Notes under the pieces: model-generated | What the model saw: only the letters and a program-made list of their open reading frames with translations | Database searches by the model: none | What the model was told of the DNA's origin: nothing | Shown: positions 6,091-15,996 of the stretch, piece by piece | Layout of the letters: the number at the start of each line of letters is the position of its first letter | Position numbering within the stretch: the first letter of the stretch is position 1 | Made by a program: the position numbers and the translations under genes | Origin: Candidatus Kuenenia stuttgartensis | Lineage (GTDB): Bacteria > Planctomycetota > Phycisphaerae > Phycisphaerales > SM1A02 | Length of the DNA: 64,000 nucleotides | NCBI GenBank assembly: GCA_945902075.1 | Contig: CAMDMA010000007.1 | Coordinates: forward strand, 1-64,000 | Direction: 5' to 3'

Positions 6091-7299
6091 TCAGTTAAAG
6101 CGCAACTCAATGAGCGAGAAATCATCGTCCCACGCAACGGGCGCACCGACGCCAGGGTCCGGAATTCCACGGCCCTTCAGGACCACGCGCCGCGTTTCAG
6201 CCACCACCGCATCAAGAATGCCTTCCGCAGGGTTCGACTCCAGAAAGGCTTCAAGGTTTTCGAGTCCCCATATCCCGCCGCCATCAAGATGCAGTTCGAA
6301 CACACCGTCCGAGAAGAGGTAGAGCCGATCGCCAGGCTCGAGCGTCACCCGCTCCGTTGGCGCGTCGTACTCATCGACGATTCCAACCATGTAGGTTGTT
6401 GACTCAAGACGCTGCAATTTCCCGCCTCGCAAAAGAAACGACGGCGGATGACCACCGCCCGACCATGCAAGTTCGCGGGTTCGGCGGTTGTACACGCCAT
6501 ACCACACCGTGAAGTACATGCCATCGTGCCGCGACATCGGGAAGCCCGCATTCAGCGCCTGTAGCGTGCGGGTGGGATTAAGCACCTGCTCACGCTCGAG
6601 CGAACCACTCTTGATGAGGTTCATCGCCGACACGCCCATCAATGCAGGACCAACACCGTGACCACTCACATCAAGAACATAGGCGGCAAGGTGATCTTCA
6701 TCGATCCAGTGGTAGCCGAACACGTCTCCACCGAGCGCCTCGCAGGGGACAAATCGCCAATCCGCCTCGATTGCGCCCGTCATCGGTGGATCAAGAAGCG
6801 AACGCACGTATGCCGCGGCACGATTGATTTCCGCCTTCATATGCGACTCGCTCACCTGCAGCGCATCGAATGCTGCGTTGCGCTCGAGCTGCATGCGGTA
6901 GCCGCGTGAGTGGTGGCGGATGCGTGCCACGAGTTCGACCGGATGCGGAAGTTTGACGAGATAGTCGCTTGCGCCTCGTGCAAATGCGTCGGCTTTTACT
7001 GCAGGATCTTCCTTTCCCGTCAGCATGATCACCGGTACATCGCGTGTCGCCTCATTTTCGCGATAGCGCGTGACAAGGTCGAGGCCGTTGGCTCCGGGCA
7101 TCTCAATATCCTGCAAGATCACAGTCGGCTTGAACTCCTCTGCGACCGCGATCGCCTGCAGAGGATCCTGCAACGAGCGATACTCACATGCCCCCTGTGT
7201 TGCAATCATGCGCCGAACTGCCTCGCCAACAATGGCTTGGTCGTCGACAAGGAGGACGCGGTCGATGGTGTCGATATTCTGCATAGAAGTGATTCTCAT
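6091..7299 (-). CDS. Response regulator with SpoIIE/PP2C serine phosphatase output (WspR position)
   Basis: This 402-residue protein has an N-terminal receiver domain (VLLVDDQ near residue 16, phosphoacceptor Asp64 in ILQDIEMPG, LTGKEDP, and the KLPHP lysine). A linker helix follows, then a PP2C phosphatase of the RsbU/SpoIIE type: ALGGDVF, DVSGHGVGPALMG, WSGGGHPPSFLL, LFSDGVFE and a C-terminal DDDFSLIELRF. All metal-binding aspartates appear present. The ATG follows the cheB-like TGA directly, so the two genes are coupled. In the Pseudomonas wsp operon this position is held by a diguanylate cyclase. Here the output would be dephosphorylation of a partner such as an anti-anti-sigma factor, but no such partner gene is in the window. 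Confidence 0.92.
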   Translation of the reverse strand: MRITSMQNIDTIDRVLLVDDQAIVGEAVRRMIATQGACEYRSLQDPLQAIAVAEEFKPTVILQDIEMPGANGLDLVTRYRENEATRDVPVIMLTGKEDPAVKADAFARGASDYLVKLPHPVELVARIRHHSRGYRMQLERNAAFDALQVSESHMKAEINRAAAYVRSLLDPPMTGAIEADWRFVPCEALGGDVFGYHWIDEDHLAAYVLDVSGHGVGPALMGVSAMNLIKSGSLEREQVLNPTRTLQALNAGFPMSRHDGMYFTVWYGVYNRRTRELAWSGGGHPPSFLLRGGKLQRLESTTYMVGIVDEYDAPTERVTLEPGDRLYLFSDGVFELHLDGGGIWGLENLEAFLESNPAEGILDAVVAETRRVVLKGRGIPDPGVGAPVAWDDDFSLIELRFN

Positions 7300-8376
7300 T
7301 CATCGCGCGAGTTGTCGCACGCGTGCCGCAATCGCGGGTCCGATTTCATCGATTGGAAGCGTCGCGGTTGCAGCGCCTAACTTATGAGCGACTCCCGGCA
7401 TTCCCCATACCACGCTCGTTGACTCGTCTTGCGCAATCGTGTGCCAACCCGCATCTCGAAGTTTGAGCATCCCCTCCGCTCCATCGCGTCCCATGCCGGT
7501 CAGAAGCACCGCAATACCGGGGCGAGGGAAGGTGGTCAGCGAAGAGAACAGTTCGTCGACAGCTGGCCGGTGCACATGATCAACCGGCTCCGCGCGATAC
7601 TCGATTGTCCCGGCGCGTGTACAGCGAAGGTGGAGATCCTCACCGGCGACCAGTGTGTCACCCTCGCGGAGTAGTGCACCGTGCCGCGCAATCGTGAGAT
7701 TTCGACCAGTCTCGGCCGAAAGCCACTCGACATAACCAGCGACAAAGTCGACTGACACATGCTGCACAACAAGAATCACCGCAGGAAGATCGCGCGGGAG
7801 GGCTGAGAGCACGCTTGCAACTGCGCGCGGACCACCGGTTGATGCACCGATCGCAACGATGATCGGTCCAGACCGCGCAGTCTCGGAAGGCGCAACCATT
7901 GCGGGAACCGGAGCGCGCGCTTGTAGAGCGTTTGGCTGTGACGCGGGAATGGGTGGCGCGTTCAGTCTTGGTGATGACCGCGCCGCAGTTGAACGCGCGA
8001 CGAGATGCAGCCGACGGACGAGATCCGCGCCTCCCGTGACTGCACCACCAGAACCAAGCGTCGGCGTATTCACCGCGTCAAGCGCACCCGCGCCGAGCGC
8101 CTCGTATACAAGCGACGCGTTTCCACTCACGGTCGCAGTCACCACAAGAATCGGGCAGGGCGTTGCTCGCATGATTTGCCGCGTCGCCTCGACACCATTG
8201 AGACGGGGCATGATGAGATCCATGAGAATCACATCCGGGCGATCGCGCGCGGCCCGCTCAATCGCCTCAATGCCATCACGGGCAATCCACGCAACGACAA
8301 GCGCCGGATCGGAAGCGACGACGCGACGCAATGCTTCGCATGCGACTGCGAGATCATTCACAATGCCGACTCTCAC
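7300..8376 (-). CDS. CheB/WspF-type chemoreceptor methylesterase
   Basis: A 358-residue protein with a receiver domain (phosphoacceptor Asp53 in ILMDLIMPR, residues 1-120), a Pro/Ala-rich linker (about 125-170) and a methylesterase domain. The catalytic serine is in GASTGGPRA (Ser179), followed by VVQHVSVDFV and LLTGMGRDGAEGM. The receiver begins GIVNDLAVACEAL, lacking the first acidic residue of the usual DD pair, as is typical of WspF. It would remove methyl groups from the operon's receptor and antagonise the CheR-like protein. It overlaps the CheA gene upstream by 4 bases (ATGA). Confidence 0.93.
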   Translation of the reverse strand: MRVGIVNDLAVACEALRRVVASDPALVVAWIARDGIEAIERAARDRPDVILMDLIMPRLNGVEATRQIMRATPCPILVVTATVSGNASLVYEALGAGALDAVNTPTLGSGGAVTGGADLVRRLHLVARSTAARSSPRLNAPPIPASQPNALQARAPVPAMVAPSETARSGPIIVAIGASTGGPRAVASVLSALPRDLPAVILVVQHVSVDFVAGYVEWLSAETGRNLTIARHGALLREGDTLVAGEDLHLRCTRAGTIEYRAEPVDHVHRPAVDELFSSLTTFPRPGIAVLLTGMGRDGAEGMLKLRDAGWHTIAQDESTSVVWGMPGVAHKLGAATATLPIDEIGPAIAARVRQLAR

Positions 8377-10706
8377 GATGTGCCTCCGGCCGCTGTTGGT
8401 GAGGGTCGAACAATGTCGACGAGATCACGAATCGTGTCCGCGAATGTGCTGTCTTGAAACGATCCCTTTGTGAGATACGCAGTCGCACCCGCGTCAAGCC
8501 CAGCGATCCGATCTTCCTCGCGATCCTTGTAGCTCACGACGATGACCGGAATCGTCGCAAATCTCGGGTCTGCGCGCAGCGTGCGCACAAAATCAATTCC
8601 ATTCATACGCGGCATATCGATATCACTGACAACCAGGTCAAACGCGCCATCACGCAGCGTGTGCCAACCGTCAAGGCCATCCACCGCAGTCTCCACCTCG
8701 AAGCCCATGCGAACGAGAAGCTGCCTTTCCACTTCGCGCACTGTCGCTGAGTCGTCGACGACAAGAGCGCGACTCGCGCGTTGAGTCTGGGCTGTAATTG
8801 CGCGCTGAGCGCCACGGAGGCGACCTTCATTCAACGCAAGACGGACAGACTGGAGCACATCCTCGCTATCAACGACGAGTACCGGCTCGCCGCTCTCGCG
8901 TACTGCTGCCGCCGAAAGAAACGCGACCTTCCCAAGCCGAGGGTCGAGCGCACGCACGACGAGATCTTCCTCACCGACCAGCGCATCAACCGCAAATCCG
9001 TAGCGCTCCTCACCCGATCCGAGGACAACGATGTGCTCGCGTTCACCAACTCGTCGTGCATCACCGAGAAGAAGTACGCGAGCCGCATCCACGACACCGA
9101 TCGACGTACCGTCGAGGACAAATTGACTTCGACCAGCCACCATCGTGATCGCCCCGCTGTCTGGCTGCACCACGCGATCAATACGCGCGAGCGGGAAAGC
9201 GAGTGTTTCGCCGGCAACATCGACAAGCAATGCGCGAATGACAGAGAGTGTGATCGGAAGATCGAGTTCAAACACCGTGCCTCGACCGAGTTCACTTTCA
9301 ATCCGCGCAACTCCACCGATTTCACGTGCAGTTGACTGAACAACATCAAGTCCAACACCACGTCCCGAGATCTCTGTCACCTTCTGCGCGGTCGAAAATC
9401 CAGGAAGGAAGAGAAACTCAAGGAGCTCTTGACGATCCATCGTTGCGGCCATTTCCGACGTCGCGAGCGCGCGGCGAACAATTCGATCGCGGAGCGCGTC
9501 AAGATCGATACCACGGCCATCATCGCTGACGCGGATGCGTAACTGCCCCGCGTGATGGCGAGCCTCGACGCGCAGCACCGACTGCGGATTCTTGCCCTGC
9601 GCGCGCCGTTCGTCTGGCATCTCGACGCCATGGTCAAGTGCATTGCGGAGCATGTGATTCAGCGGCGCGTCAAGTCGAGCGAGAATGTCTCGATCAACCG
9701 GTACTGATTCACCCACAATCTCTATGCGCGCCTCTTTTCCCAATTGTCGCGCGAGATCACGCACGGTGCGCGAGAGCGACGCCGTGGCATCTGAAAATGG
9801 ACGCATTCGGCTCGAAAGCACCTCGTGATATAGCTGCGTCGAAGTCTCTTCACCTCGTCGAATCGCATTCTCAACCGTCAAAAGGTGTGTCACAACGCGG
9901 GCGCTTCCTTGCTCGACGAGGGTACGCGCGGGCCGCACAACCTCGGAGTCGATGCCGAGACGTCGCAACTCGACACGCACGCGATCGAGTTCGTCCTCAA
10001 GGCGGATCAACTGACGCTTGAGCTCGACAGCTTCGCCTCGAATCGCGCCAAGCCGTCGCGATTCGAGCATGGTTTCGCCGGCGAGTTGTAGCAACCGATC
10101 AAGTTTTTCAGCGGTCACACGGACCGTCGTCGCGCGCGCGGCTGCCACAATTGGCACATGCGCTGGCGATTCAGCGCGTGGCTCCTCACTTCGTGGCCGC
10201 TCAACCGCGGCGAGTGACAGGGGCTCGTCTCCTTCCGGCTGGGCTTCGATTTGGGCAACCGGTTGCGGCAACTGCGGTTCAGCGGCCTTCGTTGAGGAAG
10301 ATGCAACGATTGGCACGGGTGACTTCAGTGCTTCCGCCAACGCGGCGACGACTGCGTCGTTGTCCGCGCTCCACGCCGCGACCGCGCCCTCCTCGATCCG
10401 AGCAAGTGATGCGAGCAGGTCGGTGCCCTTGAGCAGTTGATCAATCCGCGCGGCGGTGATCGACTCACGCCCTTTCTGCATCGCAACCAGCACATCCTCC
10501 ATGGCGTGCGAGAGGCGAACCGCGATATCGAGTCCGATCACACGCGCGGCACCCTTGATCGAATGGGCCGCGCGCATCAGCGGCTCAACAGTCGAAGGAT
10601 TACTCGTGCCCTCAAGGAGCACCAGCCCTTCACTGAGTGCCGCCGCATGCATCTCTGCCTCGCCGCGGAAAAGTTCGTAAAGAGAAAATCCGCCGAGGTC
10701 ACTCAT
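8373..10706 (-). CDS. CheA-type hybrid histidine kinase with C-terminal receiver (WspE-like)
   Basis: A 777-residue protein. It has an N-terminal HPt domain with the phosphorylated His48 in AAHSIKGAARV, then a Pro/Ala-rich linker, a dimerisation region, and a CheA-type ATPase (LNHMLRNALDHGVE, RVSDDGRGID, and GRGVGLDVV in the G box). A CheW-like domain and a receiver with phosphoacceptor Asp in VVSDIDMPRMNG near residue 695 follow. The CheA-REC fusion is the hallmark of WspE and other alternative-function chemosensory kinases. It would phosphorylate both the CheB-like protein and the phosphatase response regulator. It overlaps neighbours by 4 bases at both ends, implying translational coupling. 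Confidence 0.94.
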   Translation of the reverse strand: MSDLGGFSLYELFRGEAEMHAAALSEGLVLLEGTSNPSTVEPLMRAAHSIKGAARVIGLDIAVRLSHAMEDVLVAMQKGRESITAARIDQLLKGTDLLASLARIEEGAVAAWSADNDAVVAALAEALKSPVPIVASSSTKAAEPQLPQPVAQIEAQPEGDEPLSLAAVERPRSEEPRAESPAHVPIVAAARATTVRVTAEKLDRLLQLAGETMLESRRLGAIRGEAVELKRQLIRLEDELDRVRVELRRLGIDSEVVRPARTLVEQGSARVVTHLLTVENAIRRGEETSTQLYHEVLSSRMRPFSDATASLSRTVRDLARQLGKEARIEIVGESVPVDRDILARLDAPLNHMLRNALDHGVEMPDERRAQGKNPQSVLRVEARHHAGQLRIRVSDDGRGIDLDALRDRIVRRALATSEMAATMDRQELLEFLFLPGFSTAQKVTEISGRGVGLDVVQSTAREIGGVARIESELGRGTVFELDLPITLSVIRALLVDVAGETLAFPLARIDRVVQPDSGAITMVAGRSQFVLDGTSIGVVDAARVLLLGDARRVGEREHIVVLGSGEERYGFAVDALVGEEDLVVRALDPRLGKVAFLSAAAVRESGEPVLVVDSEDVLQSVRLALNEGRLRGAQRAITAQTQRASRALVVDDSATVREVERQLLVRMGFEVETAVDGLDGWHTLRDGAFDLVVSDIDMPRMNGIDFVRTLRADPRFATIPVIVVSYKDREEDRIAGLDAGATAYLTKGSFQDSTFADTIRDLVDIVRPSPTAAGGTS

Positions 10707-11329
10707 GCGAGGCTCCTCGCGAATCGCGCAGCAAGTTTCGTCGCGTCCAGAACCGTCACCAGTCGCTCGGCGCCTTCATCATCGACAAGATGCACGAGAT
10801 TCGCTGCACAACCATCAGCTGCGTGACGAACAGTGGTCGGCGGCGAGAGCAACGTAGATTCATCGATTCGGCGAACGCCGTCTACCGCATCTACAGCGAA
10901 GGCCCAGCGGTCAGCCACCGGACCGATCACGAGAAAGTGCGTCTGTTGCTGGCCTTCAACAATGCCAAGAGCCGCGCCGATGCGTGCAACGATCGTGAGT
11001 TCGCCGCCAATGTTGGCAATCCCCGCGAAAATATCGTTGGTTCGATGAGGGACGCGGCGAATCGTCGAGACACGAACAACGCGGTGCGCGTCCTCAGCTT
11101 CGATCGCGAGCTGTTCGTCGCCCACGCGGAATACAAGAATACTGCGCGTTCGACCACCACGGCGGTCGTTTCGCATCGCAACGAGTTCTGTGTTTGCTAT
11201 CAACTCTTCTGCTGGAAGTGGTCGATCGAGGAGTGCACGCATACGTGCGACATCCCTCTCAGCGCGCACCGACAACGCTGTATCTGCTGAAGTTTCGACG
11301 TGCGAAGAAAGTTTGCTGGCGTCAGTCAT
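10703..11329 (-). CDS. CheW-like coupling protein (WspD position)
   Basis: A 208-residue CheW-domain protein with an N-terminal extension of about 60 residues (RDVARMRALLDRPLPAEEL) ahead of a core beginning near SILVFRVGDEQLAI. A similar extension is a feature of WspD. The core has the expected IRRVPH, GIANIGGELTIV and HLVDDEG segments. It should bridge the receptor and kinase in a signalling array. The start ATG is 42 bases after the CheR stop and the end overlaps the kinase start (ATGA). Having two CheW proteins in one operon matches wsp gene content. Confidence 0.85.
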   Translation of the reverse strand: MTDASKLSSHVETSADTALSVRAERDVARMRALLDRPLPAEELIANTELVAMRNDRRGGRTRSILVFRVGDEQLAIEAEDAHRVVRVSTIRRVPHRTNDIFAGIANIGGELTIVARIGAALGIVEGQQQTHFLVIGPVADRWAFAVDAVDGVRRIDESTLLSPPTTVRHAADGCAANLVHLVDDEGAERLVTVLDATKLAARFARSLA

Positions 11330-11371
11330 GCGATTTTTCCTGCGTTCGTGCCAGCTATCGTTGAGGGCAGA

Positions 11372-12640
11372 CTAGCACGCATCGGCGCCGTCGCCTTTAC
11401 TCGTGCGATCGCCTCGTTCAAGATGTGCGCGCAGCGCACGCTGCCGCAGTCGTTTCGCATCGGAATGCGCACCCCGGCGTTCGGCAAGCCGCGCGGCGAT
11501 GAGGAGCGCAGCTTCGCATACGCGATCGAGATATATCGCGCGAACTGCCGCTCGTTCCGCGGCCGCGAAGTCGCCAACCGTTTCGAGTTCGAGTGCACGG
11601 GCGACGTGCTTCGCAGGATCGATTGCCGCTTCGGGGATCGGGATCGGGCTCGCGCACGCGAGTGGTACTGGGTGCGGCGTCGAACTCGAAGTCGATCGCG
11701 GTAGCGGGGGCACAGATGGCGAGAGATGTGAGTTTCTCAGCTCCGTAATCGCAGATGGAACCTCCACGCGCTGCGGGGCTGAGGAAGCTGTGGGTGGAAT
11801 CGGATCGCGGGTCAACGCAAAGACGTTCGCTGCTGCCGTTGGAGCCAGTCCCGTCGCTTGGGATGCAGCGTGTGATTCCGCGTGACCAACGAGGAGCACG
11901 CCCTGTTGCGCAAGAATCTTTAGAAGACCTGTGAAGACGCGGACGCGCACATCTTCATCGAGGTATATCGCAACATTTCGAAACACAATGACGTCGAACA
12001 AATCTCCGCGATCCAGAGCCGTGTCGATCGTCGATGCCGCAGTCGTGGGCTCTGCACGGATATGACGGAGAATCGCCGCCGATGCTCGCATGTATCCTTC
12101 CGACTCGGTGAAGTGCGGCGCTGCCCACGTCGGAATCCCGCCTCGAACGTGCATCCCACCGAAACGCGGCTCCGTCGCAAACAGCGCCGCATTACGATCG
12201 GTGGCAAGAATGTCGACGGCGCGTGCGCTTCCTGCTCCATCGATGAGTGCTGCGGCGATAGAGACTGGTTCACACCACCCGCCGCTTCCGACGATCAGAG
12301 CGCGCAGTACGGTTGCGTTCGAGTTTCGGGCAAATTCCCGCAGAAAACTGCAGGATTCCGGGTATCGAAACAACCATGTCTCCGGCGGCGAGAAAAGCGC
12401 CTCAAGCCTCGCGTACTCGCTTGGATCAGCCTCGATACGCCGCGCGCAGGCGAAGAGGTCCCGAAGCCCTAGTTCGGCTGTGCGGGTCGCGAGATACGAC
12501 CACACGCGTTCTGATGAGAGCATCGCAACTGAGAATCCGCTCTGGCGTTGGAGTCGCACGAGCAAACTCGCCGTTTCCGCGCTGTGACTCGTGGCCGCTT
12601 CGCGTTTGCGCCAATCTTCTCCAGCGGGTCGCTCGTTCAC
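11372..12640 (-). CDS. CheR-type receptor methyltransferase with C-terminal TPR-like region (WspC-like)
   Basis: A 422-residue protein. The first 270 residues form a CheR SAM-dependent methyltransferase: PPETWLFRYPESCSFL, a SAM-loop-like ALIVGSGGWCEPVSIAAAL, and DVIVFRNVAIYLDEDVR. A low-complexity Ser/Pro linker (about 275-335) leads to an Ala-rich helical tail (RALELETVGDFAAAERAAV and RLAERRGAHSDAKRL) that looks like a TPR pair. CheR-TPR is the architecture of WspC. It would methylate glutamates on the operon's receptor. It overlaps the upstream CheW gene by 4 bases. Confidence 0.88.
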   Translation of the reverse strand: MNERPAGEDWRKREAATSHSAETASLLVRLQRQSGFSVAMLSSERVWSYLATRTAELGLRDLFACARRIEADPSEYARLEALFSPPETWLFRYPESCSFLREFARNSNATVLRALIVGSGGWCEPVSIAAALIDGAGSARAVDILATDRNAALFATEPRFGGMHVRGGIPTWAAPHFTESEGYMRASAAILRHIRAEPTTAASTIDTALDRGDLFDVIVFRNVAIYLDEDVRVRVFTGLLKILAQQGVLLVGHAESHAASQATGLAPTAAANVFALTRDPIPPTASSAPQRVEVPSAITELRNSHLSPSVPPLPRSTSSSTPHPVPLACASPIPIPEAAIDPAKHVARALELETVGDFAAAERAAVRAIYLDRVCEAALLIAARLAERRGAHSDAKRLRQRALRAHLERGDRTSKGDGADAC

Positions 12641-13107
12641 GGCTCTGCGCGTGCCGGCAGCTGACGCAGCGCGGCATCGCCCTCAAGAAGTCTGCGACAA
12701 CGCAAGAGTTGCACCATCCCATTGGCATCAGCGATCGTTGGCCCAAGATGCGGCGCACCTGCAAACGAAAATCCTTCGTGTGTTCCCGTTTGTGAAAAGT
12801 CGCGATCACCAAGTCCAAGCACCTCGGGCACCAAGAGACCAACTTTGGTCGCGCTCCCTTCAAAGAGCTCTGCCTCGAGAGAGAGCACGACGATCCGCGA
12901 GCCGAGCCGAAGTGATGCTGGCGTGTTATCCACGATGACCGAAAGATCAACGAGCGGCACGAGTGCACCGTGCAAGTTGAAAAGTCCAAGCAGCCACTTC
13001 GGACCAGTGCCCGCTGGTCGATGGTCAACGACCGGAAGAACCTCGCTGATCTCGCGGCAATCAAGGGCAAAACGCCGACCTCCCACCATGAGAAAGAGTA
13101 CCTGCAT
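12637..13107 (-). CDS. CheW-like coupling protein (WspB position)
   Basis: A single CheW domain of 156 residues. The start is placed at the ATG at 13107 because it overlaps the receptor stop codon in a TGATG junction and is followed at once by the domain (VLFLMVGGRRFALDCREISEVLP). A frame extended to 13134 would add nine unrelated residues. Core motifs include WLLGLFNLHGALVPLVDLSV and VVLSLEAELF. It would link the receptor to the CheA-REC kinase. Confidence 0.88.
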   Translation of the reverse strand: MQVLFLMVGGRRFALDCREISEVLPVVDHRPAGTGPKWLLGLFNLHGALVPLVDLSVIVDNTPASLRLGSRIVVLSLEAELFEGSATKVGLLVPEVLGLGDRDFSQTGTHEGFSFAGAPHLGPTIADANGMVQLLRCRRLLEGDAALRQLPARAEP

Positions 13108-15212
13108 CAGCGTCCATCTCCTGAGTTTGGACACGATGCGCTGCCCTCAACGGTCGGAGCTGACACATGAAACCGTGCAACGGCGTCCTGCAACACTGCG
13201 ATTGCGTGCGCGAGTTCCTCGGCGACACGACCAAACTCGGCGACGCTCGCCGCCGTTTGCTGCGCGCCCTCCGCAACCTGCCGCACTGCACCCTCGATTT
13301 GAACGACGCCTAAAGACTGAGCGGCCATCCCCCGTTGCACATCCGAAAAACCATCCACCGCTGCATTCATCTCCCCGATGATGCCGCCGAGATCATTGGC
13401 AACGCGCTGTACATCGGCAGTTCCTCCGCGCATTTCGCTCGTGAAACGCGCCATTTCCTGAACGCCCGACGCGACTGCTTCCTGCATCTGACGCACGATG
13501 CGCTCAATATCAAGCGTGGCTGATGCGGTCTGGTCTGCAAGTCGGCGAATCTCGCGCGCCACCACTAAGAATCCGAGACCGGCGTCGCCCGCCTTCTCCG
13601 CTTCGATCGCAGCGTTGACCGACAGGAGATTGGTCTGCTCAGCGACCTTGGTGATCGTGACAACGACGGTGTTAATCGCCGCCGCTTTTTCCGTGATAAC
13701 TTGAAGTCGATCACCAATCTCGCTGGTCGCGCCATCAAGCCGCGTCATCGTGACCGACATCGTATCGAGACTGTCGCGACCCGCGCTTGCTGATCCGGCC
13801 GTCCGCCGCGCACCCGCATCGACCGATTCAACCGTGCGAAGCAGTTCCGCGCCGGTTGCGGAAATCTCGCGAATAGCAGCCGCGATCTGTGCCGTCGATC
13901 CACCGAACGCGCCCACGGTCGCGCCCTGTTGGCGACTGGTCGCTGCGAGTTCGACGCTTGTCGCCGCGAGCCGAGTTGACGCCGAACGCACGCTGCCAAC
14001 GATCCCAGCGAGATCGTCATTCATCCGACCCATTGCGCGAACGAGTTCTGCACTTTCATCGCTTCCTCGAACGTCAGCGATCACGTGAGACAGATCGCCT
14101 GACGCGATGCGCTCGGCGGCGAGCTGCGCAGCCCGCACGCGACGGCTGATACCTATCGCCCCGACAGAGAGCAGACCGACAACGATCGCGATGCCAGAGA
14201 TCGCGGTGACAGTGTTCACAAAGAAGAGTCCAGAAAGTTCAGCCGCGACGGCGCTCGTTGGCTTCCGGAGCACGAGCCGCCATTCGCCGGTTGGGATCAT
14301 GGCCGACACGAAATAGCACTCTTCGCTCGACTCAGGATCGATGCGCTTTTCGACAAGCACACCTTGCTTCGGGATCGCACGAAAGACATCGCCAAGCGAA
14401 GACTTCGCGATCGGCGTGGTGCGGAGGCGCGTGCCGTCGGTCGCGTCGGTGGTCGCGGCGACAAACAAACCGCGTGTCTCAAGGAACATGTCTGCGCCAA
14501 GTTGCTGAGCGATCTCCGCGAGCCGCTGCTGGACCTCCGTAAGTGCCACGTCGAGCCCAGCAACGCCCGCAAATCGACCGTCGATTACGATCGGAATGAC
14601 TGTCTCGATGATGTCGGTGCCGAGATACTCATACGGCTTGGTCAACACCGGATCTGCAACACCCGATCGCTCGAATCGCGCTTTGGGAAAGCGATACCAA
14701 AGGTCCGCGTCATCTGAGACCTCTTGCAACGGCTCGAGCCGAAACCCGCCTGATGCGTTGGGGTCGCGCTTGTAGTAGGGATAGAAGCGTCCTCCCTCAC
14801 CGAGTGCGTTTGCAGGCACTCCGGGCTGCGCGCCCGCCGCGTCGTTGCCATCGGCGTTTGGCTCGTACCCCACATACGCGGCGTACACATTCGGGCTCGC
14901 GTTCAAAATGCTCTCAAGAAAACGCAAGGTGTCCGCGCGACGGCCAAACTGACCAGACTCTTGTGAAAGCACCATCATCCGCACGAGTCGCACCGTCGCC
15001 TCATTCCGGAGATTGATCTCCTTGGCGGCGAGTTCAGTTGCGTTGCGTAGGTCGCGCTCAAGGCTTGCGCTGAGCCCATCCCAGGCGCGGTAGCTATTTA
15101 GTCCGACGACCGCGAGGACAACGAGTGCCGAAGGCAAAACGCCAAAGAGCATGCTGCGGCCAAGCAGCGATTGATGAAAGGCAACCGTCGAGGTCGGTAC
15201 CGGAGAGGACAT
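13107..15212 (-). CDS. Methyl-accepting chemotaxis protein with large extracytoplasmic sensor (WspA-like)
   Basis: Starting at the ATG at 15212 the protein has 701 residues. It has a first membrane segment near residues 20-40 ([18 protein letters not shown]), then a dCache-like sensor of about 270 residues ([37 protein letters not shown]). A second membrane segment ([20 protein letters not shown]), a HAMP domain and a cytoplasmic signalling domain follow. Its hairpin tip ([20 protein letters not shown], then [14 protein letters not shown]) closely resembles WspA. The sensor should bind a small ligand or sense a surface or envelope cue. An upstream in-frame ATG at 15257 would overlap the preceding gene. 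Confidence 0.92.
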
Positions 15213-15237
15213 CAGAGCACTGTAACAGCGCGCACGA

Positions 15238-15996
15238 TCAATCCGTCTCGGGATCATCGCTCCAACGGATCTCGAGCCGACGCGCGCGCGAGTGCTCAGG
15301 AAGCAGAGCGCGGATCATTTCTGCGACGGTCGCGCGAGCCTTCTCGCGGACCTCAAACATCGCGACATCGCTCGACGCCTCTCGCACCACCGCAGCCCGG
15401 ATTGTGCCAATTGCGAGTTTTTCCGCTGCGTCATCGCCGACAAGATGGTCAACCCAGTCACGATCGACCTCGCGTGCCACGCGCGTCCAATCGCTCTGCA
15501 CCTCCACCAGCGTCTCGTCCACCCGCGGTGGTGGGAGCGTGACGATCCATCCATCCCCGGTGTGTTCCGCTCGAATATCGGATTTGAACGCGTCGAGCGG
15601 TACGATGTACTGCACGACGTTCTGTGGCACAAGGAGTTCGACCTTGGTACGACCCAATTCCACCCGCCATCCCGGACCATAAGGGACAAGCCACGGCCGG
15701 ATGGTTGCCTCCGTTGGAACGCTGGCCTCAACACGTACGGCGATTTCGCGCGTCGCAACCCGAAGCGCAGGTGCTTCACAGAGCTTTCCGAGCGCGCTGA
15801 AAATCACTGGGCGGGGGCCAGGCCTAGAGAATCCATCGAACACCACGAACACCACAACTGCAACGACAATTGCGAGCAGTGCGGCCCCAATCGCAAATGT
15901 TCCACCGCCGAGACAACCAAGTACCGAGAGCCACGGACGACTTGTGGCAAGCGGAGCACCGCGTTCGTCGTTCGACGGGAAGCCAGGGTCGGTCAT
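15238..15996 (-). CDS. Membrane-anchored DUF4230-like protein at the head of the chemosensory operon
   Basis: A 252-residue protein with a single N-terminal membrane anchor (residues about 25-55) and a long extracytoplasmic domain. The domain contains [52 protein letters not shown] and a helical C-terminus with [15 protein letters not shown]. The strand pattern and VPLDAF-like segment suggest DUF4230, a domain of unknown function, but this is not certain. It ends 25 bases before the receptor start on the same strand, so it may be the first gene of the wsp-like transcription unit. Confidence 0.55.

Follow-up and report, generated by a model that had tools for sequence, protein, structure and literature searches.

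Studies of surface sensing and of cyclic diguanylate (c-di-GMP) control use the Wsp system as a model. Here we describe a seven-gene operon of the Wsp kind from the first 64,000 nucleotides of contig CAMDMA010000007.1 (assembly GCA_945902075.1, titled Candidatus Kuenenia stuttgartensis, order Phycisphaerales), in which the last gene encodes a WspR-type receiver and stalk joined to a predicted phosphatase of the protein phosphatase 2C (PP2C) family. This stretch, referred to as the window, represents contig C7; the draft genome spans 3.3 Mb in 70 contigs and is 97% complete. The operon shares with the Wsp/WspR systems of Pseudomonas and other proteobacteria its gene order, the class of its CheA-REC kinase, the extended CheW, the receptor tip, and the receiver with the start of the stalk. 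It differs from them in having PP2C in place of the GGDEF (diguanylate cyclase) domain, a weakly matched Cache-type periplasmic receptor domain, and a different phylum. The RsbU, SpoIIE and SiaA phosphatases share the PP2C family and its motifs, and to our knowledge none of them takes its input from a chemosensory array.

In beta- and gammaproteobacteria, every Wsp system is reported to end in WspR or WspH, one per organism (2021 study, PMC8552884). The WspH system of Burkholderia (same study) resembles the present one in that its Wsp operon also couples a receiver of the WspR type to a different output; the gene of WspH, however, lies upstream and codes for a hybrid histidine kinase, whereas the window has a phosphatase at the operon end, and no WspH-like upstream hybrid histidine kinase output was found for the window operon among open reading frames and Pfam matches. 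In a 2012 survey (PMC3447774), the regulator outputs of CheR-TPR (tetratricopeptide repeat) clusters include Ser/Thr phosphatase family 2C, a metal-dependent phosphatase and a mononucleotidyl cyclase. Phosphatase regulators in such clusters have thus been known since 2012. The operon has a multidomain response regulator within a chemotaxis (che) cluster, the mark of the survey's alternative cellular functions (ACF) class. In the available parts of the survey, ACF phosphatase regulators are given without Wsp kinship, phylum pattern or STAS/RsbW partners, and its main text nowhere contains the string “Planctomyc”. HsbR-HsbA of P. aeruginosa (PMC5085249) is alike in that a regulator phosphatase acts on an anti-anti-sigma factor, and is a precedent for a phosphorylation-activated REC-PP2C protein acting on a STAS protein. 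Its input is HptB and HsbR is also a kinase, whereas the window has a chemosensory kinase as input and a regulator without a kinase domain by Pfam. In two genome papers (PMC6461901, PMC9119077), planctomycete genes are given the names wspR or WspE-WspRF and a role in adhesion or biofilm control, with the output domain unmentioned in the parts available. PMC5907407 describes a further Wsp-like cluster, whose genes are ordered differently. Among the papers listed in literature searches, covered mostly by title and abstract and with subscription papers thinly represented, none was found to describe a Wsp operon with a phosphatase output.

As the original prediction held, seven genes on the minus strand, running from 15257 (or 15212) to 6091, follow the order wspA-B-C-D-E-F-R, as judged from open reading frames, Pfam matches and the order conserved in relatives. 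The features are as follows.

13107..15257, minus strand: chemoreceptor (WspA position) with a weak PDC/dCache-like periplasmic domain, a weak HAMP domain and a signalling domain (Pfam, tip motif)
15212, minus strand: alternative start of the chemoreceptor
12637..13134, minus strand: CheW (WspB position), 165 residues; alternative start at 13107, with AGGAG upstream
11372..12640, minus strand: CheR methyltransferase (WspC position; Pfam)
10703..11329, minus strand: CheW (WspD position), 208 residues, with an N-terminal extension of ∼60 residues (Pfam)
8373..10706, minus strand: CheA-REC hybrid kinase (WspE position), Hpt histidine and REC aspartate present
7300..8376, minus strand: CheB methylesterase (WspF position; NCBIfam PRK12555, 389 bits against a cut-off of 342)
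6091..7299, minus strand: response regulator, a WspR-type receiver and stalk start (residues ∼10-155) fused to a SpoIIE/PP2C domain (residues ∼200-402)
6835..7299, minus strand: WspR-type receiver, D64 at the phospho-acceptor position
6091..6834, minus strand: end of the stalk and PP2C domain, with GGD192, D210VSGHG, SD331G and D392D393

Residues 10-152 of the regulator match WspR of P. aeruginosa (3bre, E-value 3e-47) and residues 14-153 match WspR of P. syringae (3i5a, 9e-47); the next structure for the receiver is PleD, at 1e-16. The part matched to WspR takes in the receiver and the beginning of the stalk. What remains is a SpoIIE domain (126 bits versus a Pfam cut-off of 25); the solved structures closest to it in sequence are those of P. 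aeruginosa RssB (3es2, 3eq2) and SpoIIE. By Pfam the regulator has SpoIIE and no GGDEF domain, and contig C7 is without any GGDEF match. The PP2C signature residues D192, D210, D331, D392 and D393 are invariant in alignments of 24 and of 36 sequences, window included, the titles of the larger set spanning several phyla; none of these aspartates, taken to include the metal ligands of SpoIIE, is lost. An RsbU-like phosphatase output in place of GGDEF, as first proposed, is supported. An AlphaFold2 model built with the 36 sequences (predicted local distance difference test 92.9, predicted template modelling score 0.73) has a single helix, residues 120-167, joining receiver to phosphatase. Foldseek ranks RssB entries (REC-PP2C) first, followed by WspR, SiaA-PP2C, SpoIIE and an RsbU-RsbW entry. 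Among the best 80 of 571 relatives, the closest regulators are 79-80% identical and come from metagenome-assembled genomes titled Phycisphaera sp. RI_241, Candidatus Kuenenia and Planctomycetota plancto74. Judged by sequence, a domain swap has taken place in the regulator, with an intact-looking, predicted PP2C phosphatase following a WspR-type receiver and stalk.

In gene order, the Pfam domains are MCPsignal; CheW; CheR; CheW; Hpt, HATPase, CheW and REC; REC and CheB_methylest; and REC and SpoIIE, with E-values of 4e-15 or less except for Hpt (5e-12). H-kinase_dim (5e-4), the receptor PDC/Cache domains (7e-6 and 7e-5) and HAMP (2e-4) fall below the Pfam cut-offs. In tblastn searches alone, all seven genes lie in order at 17 of 26 relatives' loci; four others are cut by contig ends, three lack or do not show one gene, one has CheA and regulator only, and one has only a phosphatase match without REC. 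The same gene order is found in annotated Azoarcus and Mesorhizobium operons that end in a diguanylate cyclase or PleD-family regulator. The receptor tip NAAIEAEKA, which had been called WspA-like from its AAIEAEKA core, dominates both locus sets: 44 of 45 tips from 58 gammaproteobacterial wsp loci (two PP2C loci excluded) and 46 of 49 from the window plus 106 loci retrieved with the PP2C query, counting pattern-matched tips only and including any receptor at the locus besides the operon's own. The N-terminal extension predicted for the second CheW is likewise present. Junctions are 4-base overlaps in three of six cases, not in most as had been stated; of the remaining three, one is a gap of 42 bases, one a 0-base join and one a 28-base overlap that shrinks to 1 base if the first CheW starts at 13107. 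A CheR-TPR protein had been predicted, and of this the CheR part stands; TPR gave no Pfam match at an E-value of 0.001, and the short C-terminal tail is helical-looking by eye.

Within the genus, CheR is the least conserved operon protein (40-49% identity, one fragment 55%); its S-adenosylmethionine-site region reads GSGGWCEP in the window and GCASGAEP in family locus L061. At loci L137, L153, L157, L163, L165, L177, L186 and L190, several with Gemmata-like titles, the PP2C regulator gene precedes the receptor gene and is not at the operon end.

The operon kinase belongs, on sequence evidence, to the WspE class. In the phylogeny of CheA-REC against WspE that had been suggested as a check, an 88-row tree of the CheA core splits the window kinase together with PP2C- and GGDEF-linked kinases from seven other CheA proteins with support 100, and a 65-row tree repeats this split against five others, also with support 100; the outgroup rows are few in both and long-branched. 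The 65-row tree was partly a random draw from 160 rows, leaving out seven named long or fragmentary rows and drawn rows shorter than ∼400 residues. L205 and L234, with very long branches, were excluded from the 65-row, 148-row, 182-row and approximately unbiased (AU) analyses. Kinase tree, WspR receiver, tip and gene order thus agree on the proposed kinship to Wsp, and this kinship, with PP2C in place of GGDEF, makes the operon a Wsp system with a swapped output. Of 28 family genomes with a WspE-type CheA, 27 also have the phosphatase regulator; the exception is G011, whose contig stops past the kinase gene. The window's genome has a second che cluster, located on contig C28, with a different type of CheA.

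In the 65-row tree, 20 GGDEF-linked rows, two dual-output loci and WspH-like L263 form one clade (support 97) that sits inside the PP2C-linked rows. An origin of GGDEF from PP2C, read off this nesting, was dropped, because forcing the PP2C rows into one clade was not rejected in the AU test (p 0.51); with the long outgroup branches, this means that the kinase tree does not settle the direction of the swap. PP2C and GGDEF labels switch once in 148 rows and twice in 167 rows once rows from the phylum of Desulfovibrio are added, and counting all six output labels, 8 and 12 changes are needed on the two trees. Three PP2C rows (L159, L197, L269) lie on the GGDEF side of the 182-row tree that includes Desulfovibrio-phylum rows. 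A receiver tree of 145 columns and 122 rows, thinned to 60 PP2C and 30 GGDEF rows, resolved little.

An 80-locus PP2C set (the best 80 of 571 relatives) was retrieved by the phosphatase regulator. Because this set is biased to phosphatase output, three censuses were made by the kinase at an E-value of 1e-110; the two best candidates were scored per genome, so that counts are lower bounds. Outside the window's own genome, GGDEF and PP2C were called with hidden Markov models (HMMs) built in this analysis, and cyclase, HD-GYP and PAS calls were read from translations, not Pfam. In Planctomycetota the kinase occurs in at least 20 of 392 genomes, with 18 PP2C outputs, no GGDEF, one hybrid kinase with a WspR receiver (L276) and one with none in view (L277). 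In the class of a Candidatus Methylumidiphilus genome (L132), taken as Gammaproteobacteria, it occurs at 62 or more places in 61 of 369 genomes: 56 GGDEF, two PP2C, one GGDEF with a divergent PP2C (L132), two with none in view and one cut (L366). The GGDEF calls used an HMM from six rows, with the GGEEF motif in 52 of the 56 and only a looser pattern in four. In the phylum of Desulfovibrio genome L146, at least 23 of 395 genomes have the kinase, with outputs of PP2C (11), PP2C plus a class III cyclase (3), GGDEF (6) and none in view (3). A PP2C swap in several phyla suggests that the same sensor machine is able to control another kind of switch.

Adjacent PP2C and putative class III nucleotidyl cyclase WspR-type regulators were seen in the wsp operons of L145, L202, L346, L348 and L357. 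At the score limits used, 22 of the 80 loci in the PP2C set, such as L140, L143 and L179, have no WspE- or CheB-type gene in view, and WspR-receiver-PP2C loci L139, L149 and L169 adjoin a different CheA type.

We consider it probable that this Wsp-class array, with its WspR receiver-stalk-PP2C regulator, acts through a STAS/RsbW partner switch. A periplasmic cue at the receptor would change the activity of the CheA-REC kinase, with methylation by CheR and CheB tuning it. The kinase would phosphorylate the WspR-type receiver, and the long stalk helix may relay the change to the phosphatase, which would be activated on phosphorylation by analogy with what is reported for HsbR. The phosphatase would then dephosphorylate a STAS anti-anti-sigma-like protein, its putative substrate, whose state would free or capture an RsbW-type kinase or anti-sigma factor. 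We infer the signal and phenotype of the system, as well as the phosphotransfer.

Partners were sought elsewhere in the genome, which has 4 SpoIIE, 8 STAS, 2 HATPase_c_2 and 3 GGDEF matches, including several stand-alone STAS proteins. Only one HATPase_c_2 protein is RsbW-sized, and it adjoins a STAS protein on contig C21; the other match lies within a long histidine-kinase-like frame. The C21 RsbW-STAS pair is the leading target in the genome and the putative partner of the operon. HMMs were built from relatives of this planctomycete pair, for which RsbW was in the same short locus at 29 of 30 STAS loci. With these, STAS and/or RsbW lie near 8 of 58 che-linked PP2C loci (L138, L141, L144, L148, L173, L191, L177, L196), “near” meaning at most ∼1.5 kb from the PP2C gene or from the opposite end of the che operon; the RsbW of L134, which is part of an 864-residue frame at a distance of 3.2 kb, was left out. 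At L141, RsbW and STAS directly follow the regulator. Pfam confirmed all ten neighbour proteins submitted, which did not include L177 or the STAS protein of L196. In the kinase censuses, such neighbours were found at 1 of 14 further planctomycete loci (L269), 1 of 22 Desulfovibrio-phylum loci (L364) and, by the same HMMs, none of 60 gammaproteobacterial wsp loci. RsbW/STAS genes beside PP2C-type operons elsewhere, with none at gammaproteobacterial wsp loci, support the partner switch in general.

Several points weigh against it. Profile searches found no STAS or RsbW in the window, as had been noted at the outset, and HMM searches found none beside the operon in 25 family loci (L046-L070). Further, 50 of the 58 che-linked PP2C loci have no such neighbour within ∼1.5 kb, some flanks being short, and the gammaproteobacterial control differs from the test set in phylum and stretch length. 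The C21 STAS protein is matched in 95 of 101 genomes (own included), operon-bearing or not, so its link to the operon is not specific; its co-occurrence with the operon, considered as evidence, was set aside as uninformative. Operon-bearing congeners G006 and G015 have no STAS match, and three other PP2C proteins of the genome could also use the C21 pair. Lastly, the nearest fold with this architecture, RssB of P. aeruginosa, has a degenerate phosphatase, and architecture alone is therefore no proof of phosphatase activity. The serine/threonine phospho-switch of the original prediction gains support from the RsbW and STAS genes beside some related PP2C operons, and not from the loci of the operon's own family.

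We rate as somewhat doubtful a branched output, in which the kinase acts in cis on the PP2C regulator and in trans on a REC-GAF-HD-GYP protein, perhaps also on a REC-oxidoreductase, placing c-di-GMP breakdown and the serine/threonine switch under joint control. The genome has two further WspR-type receivers, on proteins that Pfam reads as GAF-HD-GYP and as NAD_binding_9/Pyr_redox_2. With an HMM of the operon receiver, these orphans score 160.5 and 173.8 bits, in the range of true GGDEF-type WspR receivers (158-220 bits); they are more distant than the operon's own receivers (250-257 bits in three genus loci; family orphans 122.7-213.8) and could have kinases of their own. The genome's own REC-GGDEF protein scores 55.8 bits; its receiver is not WspR-type, which argues against a GGDEF regulator elsewhere as the true output. 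Orphans were searched for at an E-value of 1e-20, with at most 18 first-look candidates scored per genome and misses possible both ways. They occur in 20 of 30 operon-bearing family genomes, leaving 10 without, versus 1 of 31 genomes without the operon; outside the genus they co-occur with it in 7 of 14 versus 1 of 31 (Fisher 5e-4, ignoring phylogeny and counting G011 as operon-bearing). All eight orphans outside the genus end in HD-GYP-like sequence as read from translations, Pfam having been applied to the own-genome one only. Paired outputs also exist elsewhere: PP2C with a class III cyclase at the five operons named above, PP2C with HD-GYP (L131), and GGDEF with a divergent PP2C (L132, L138). 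Output “instead of c-di-GMP”, as first proposed, is too strong a wording, given that the genome encodes an HD-GYP protein with an orphan receiver of the WspR type, a kind that co-occurs with the operon.

The REC-GAF-HD protein (HD-GYP-like), at L083:8456-10195 on own contig C13, is a candidate c-di-GMP phosphodiesterase. The other orphan, at L082:9194-11095 on own contig C25, joins the receiver to an FAD/NAD(P)-binding oxidoreductase-like protein, an unusual receiver output seen also at L237, L239 and L241, in four genomes of the genus altogether.

It is unlikely that the phosphatase serves c-di-GMP indirectly, through a STAS protein binding a diguanylate cyclase. STAS-type proteins are reported to steer such cyclases (HsbA-HsbD, SiaC-SiaD), so c-di-GMP may still lie downstream of a phosphatase output; the literature available reports or proposes both the HsbR-HsbA-HsbD and the SiaABC-SiaD pathway for P. 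aeruginosa, and the genome's three GGDEF matches and stand-alone STAS proteins would supply the parts, but GGDEF and STAS share a contig only on C14, ∼57 kb apart. A catalytically idle domain serving as a binding module, as in RssB-type regulators, would fit RssB being the closest full-length fold and is very improbable given the invariant signature aspartates.

Beyond the proposed partner switch, the WspR receiver may be an exchangeable plug on one conserved Wsp array, whose output would be a phosphatase, a diguanylate cyclase, a class III cyclase, an HD-GYP protein, a hybrid kinase or an oxidoreductase, in some cases two of them at once; c-di-GMP would be one branch only, possibly nested in an older phosphatase-linked system. 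We hold this generalization tentatively, at a little under even confidence. A protein phosphatase would be a third Wsp output, and it is the commonest among the genomes sampled from Planctomycetota and from the Desulfovibrio phylum, some operons having two outputs. Where a planctomycete wspR is named by gene, a c-di-GMP reading is unsafe if the regulator is of the PP2C type. The outputs form a natural domain-swap series for studying the control of unrelated enzymes by a single receiver and stalk.

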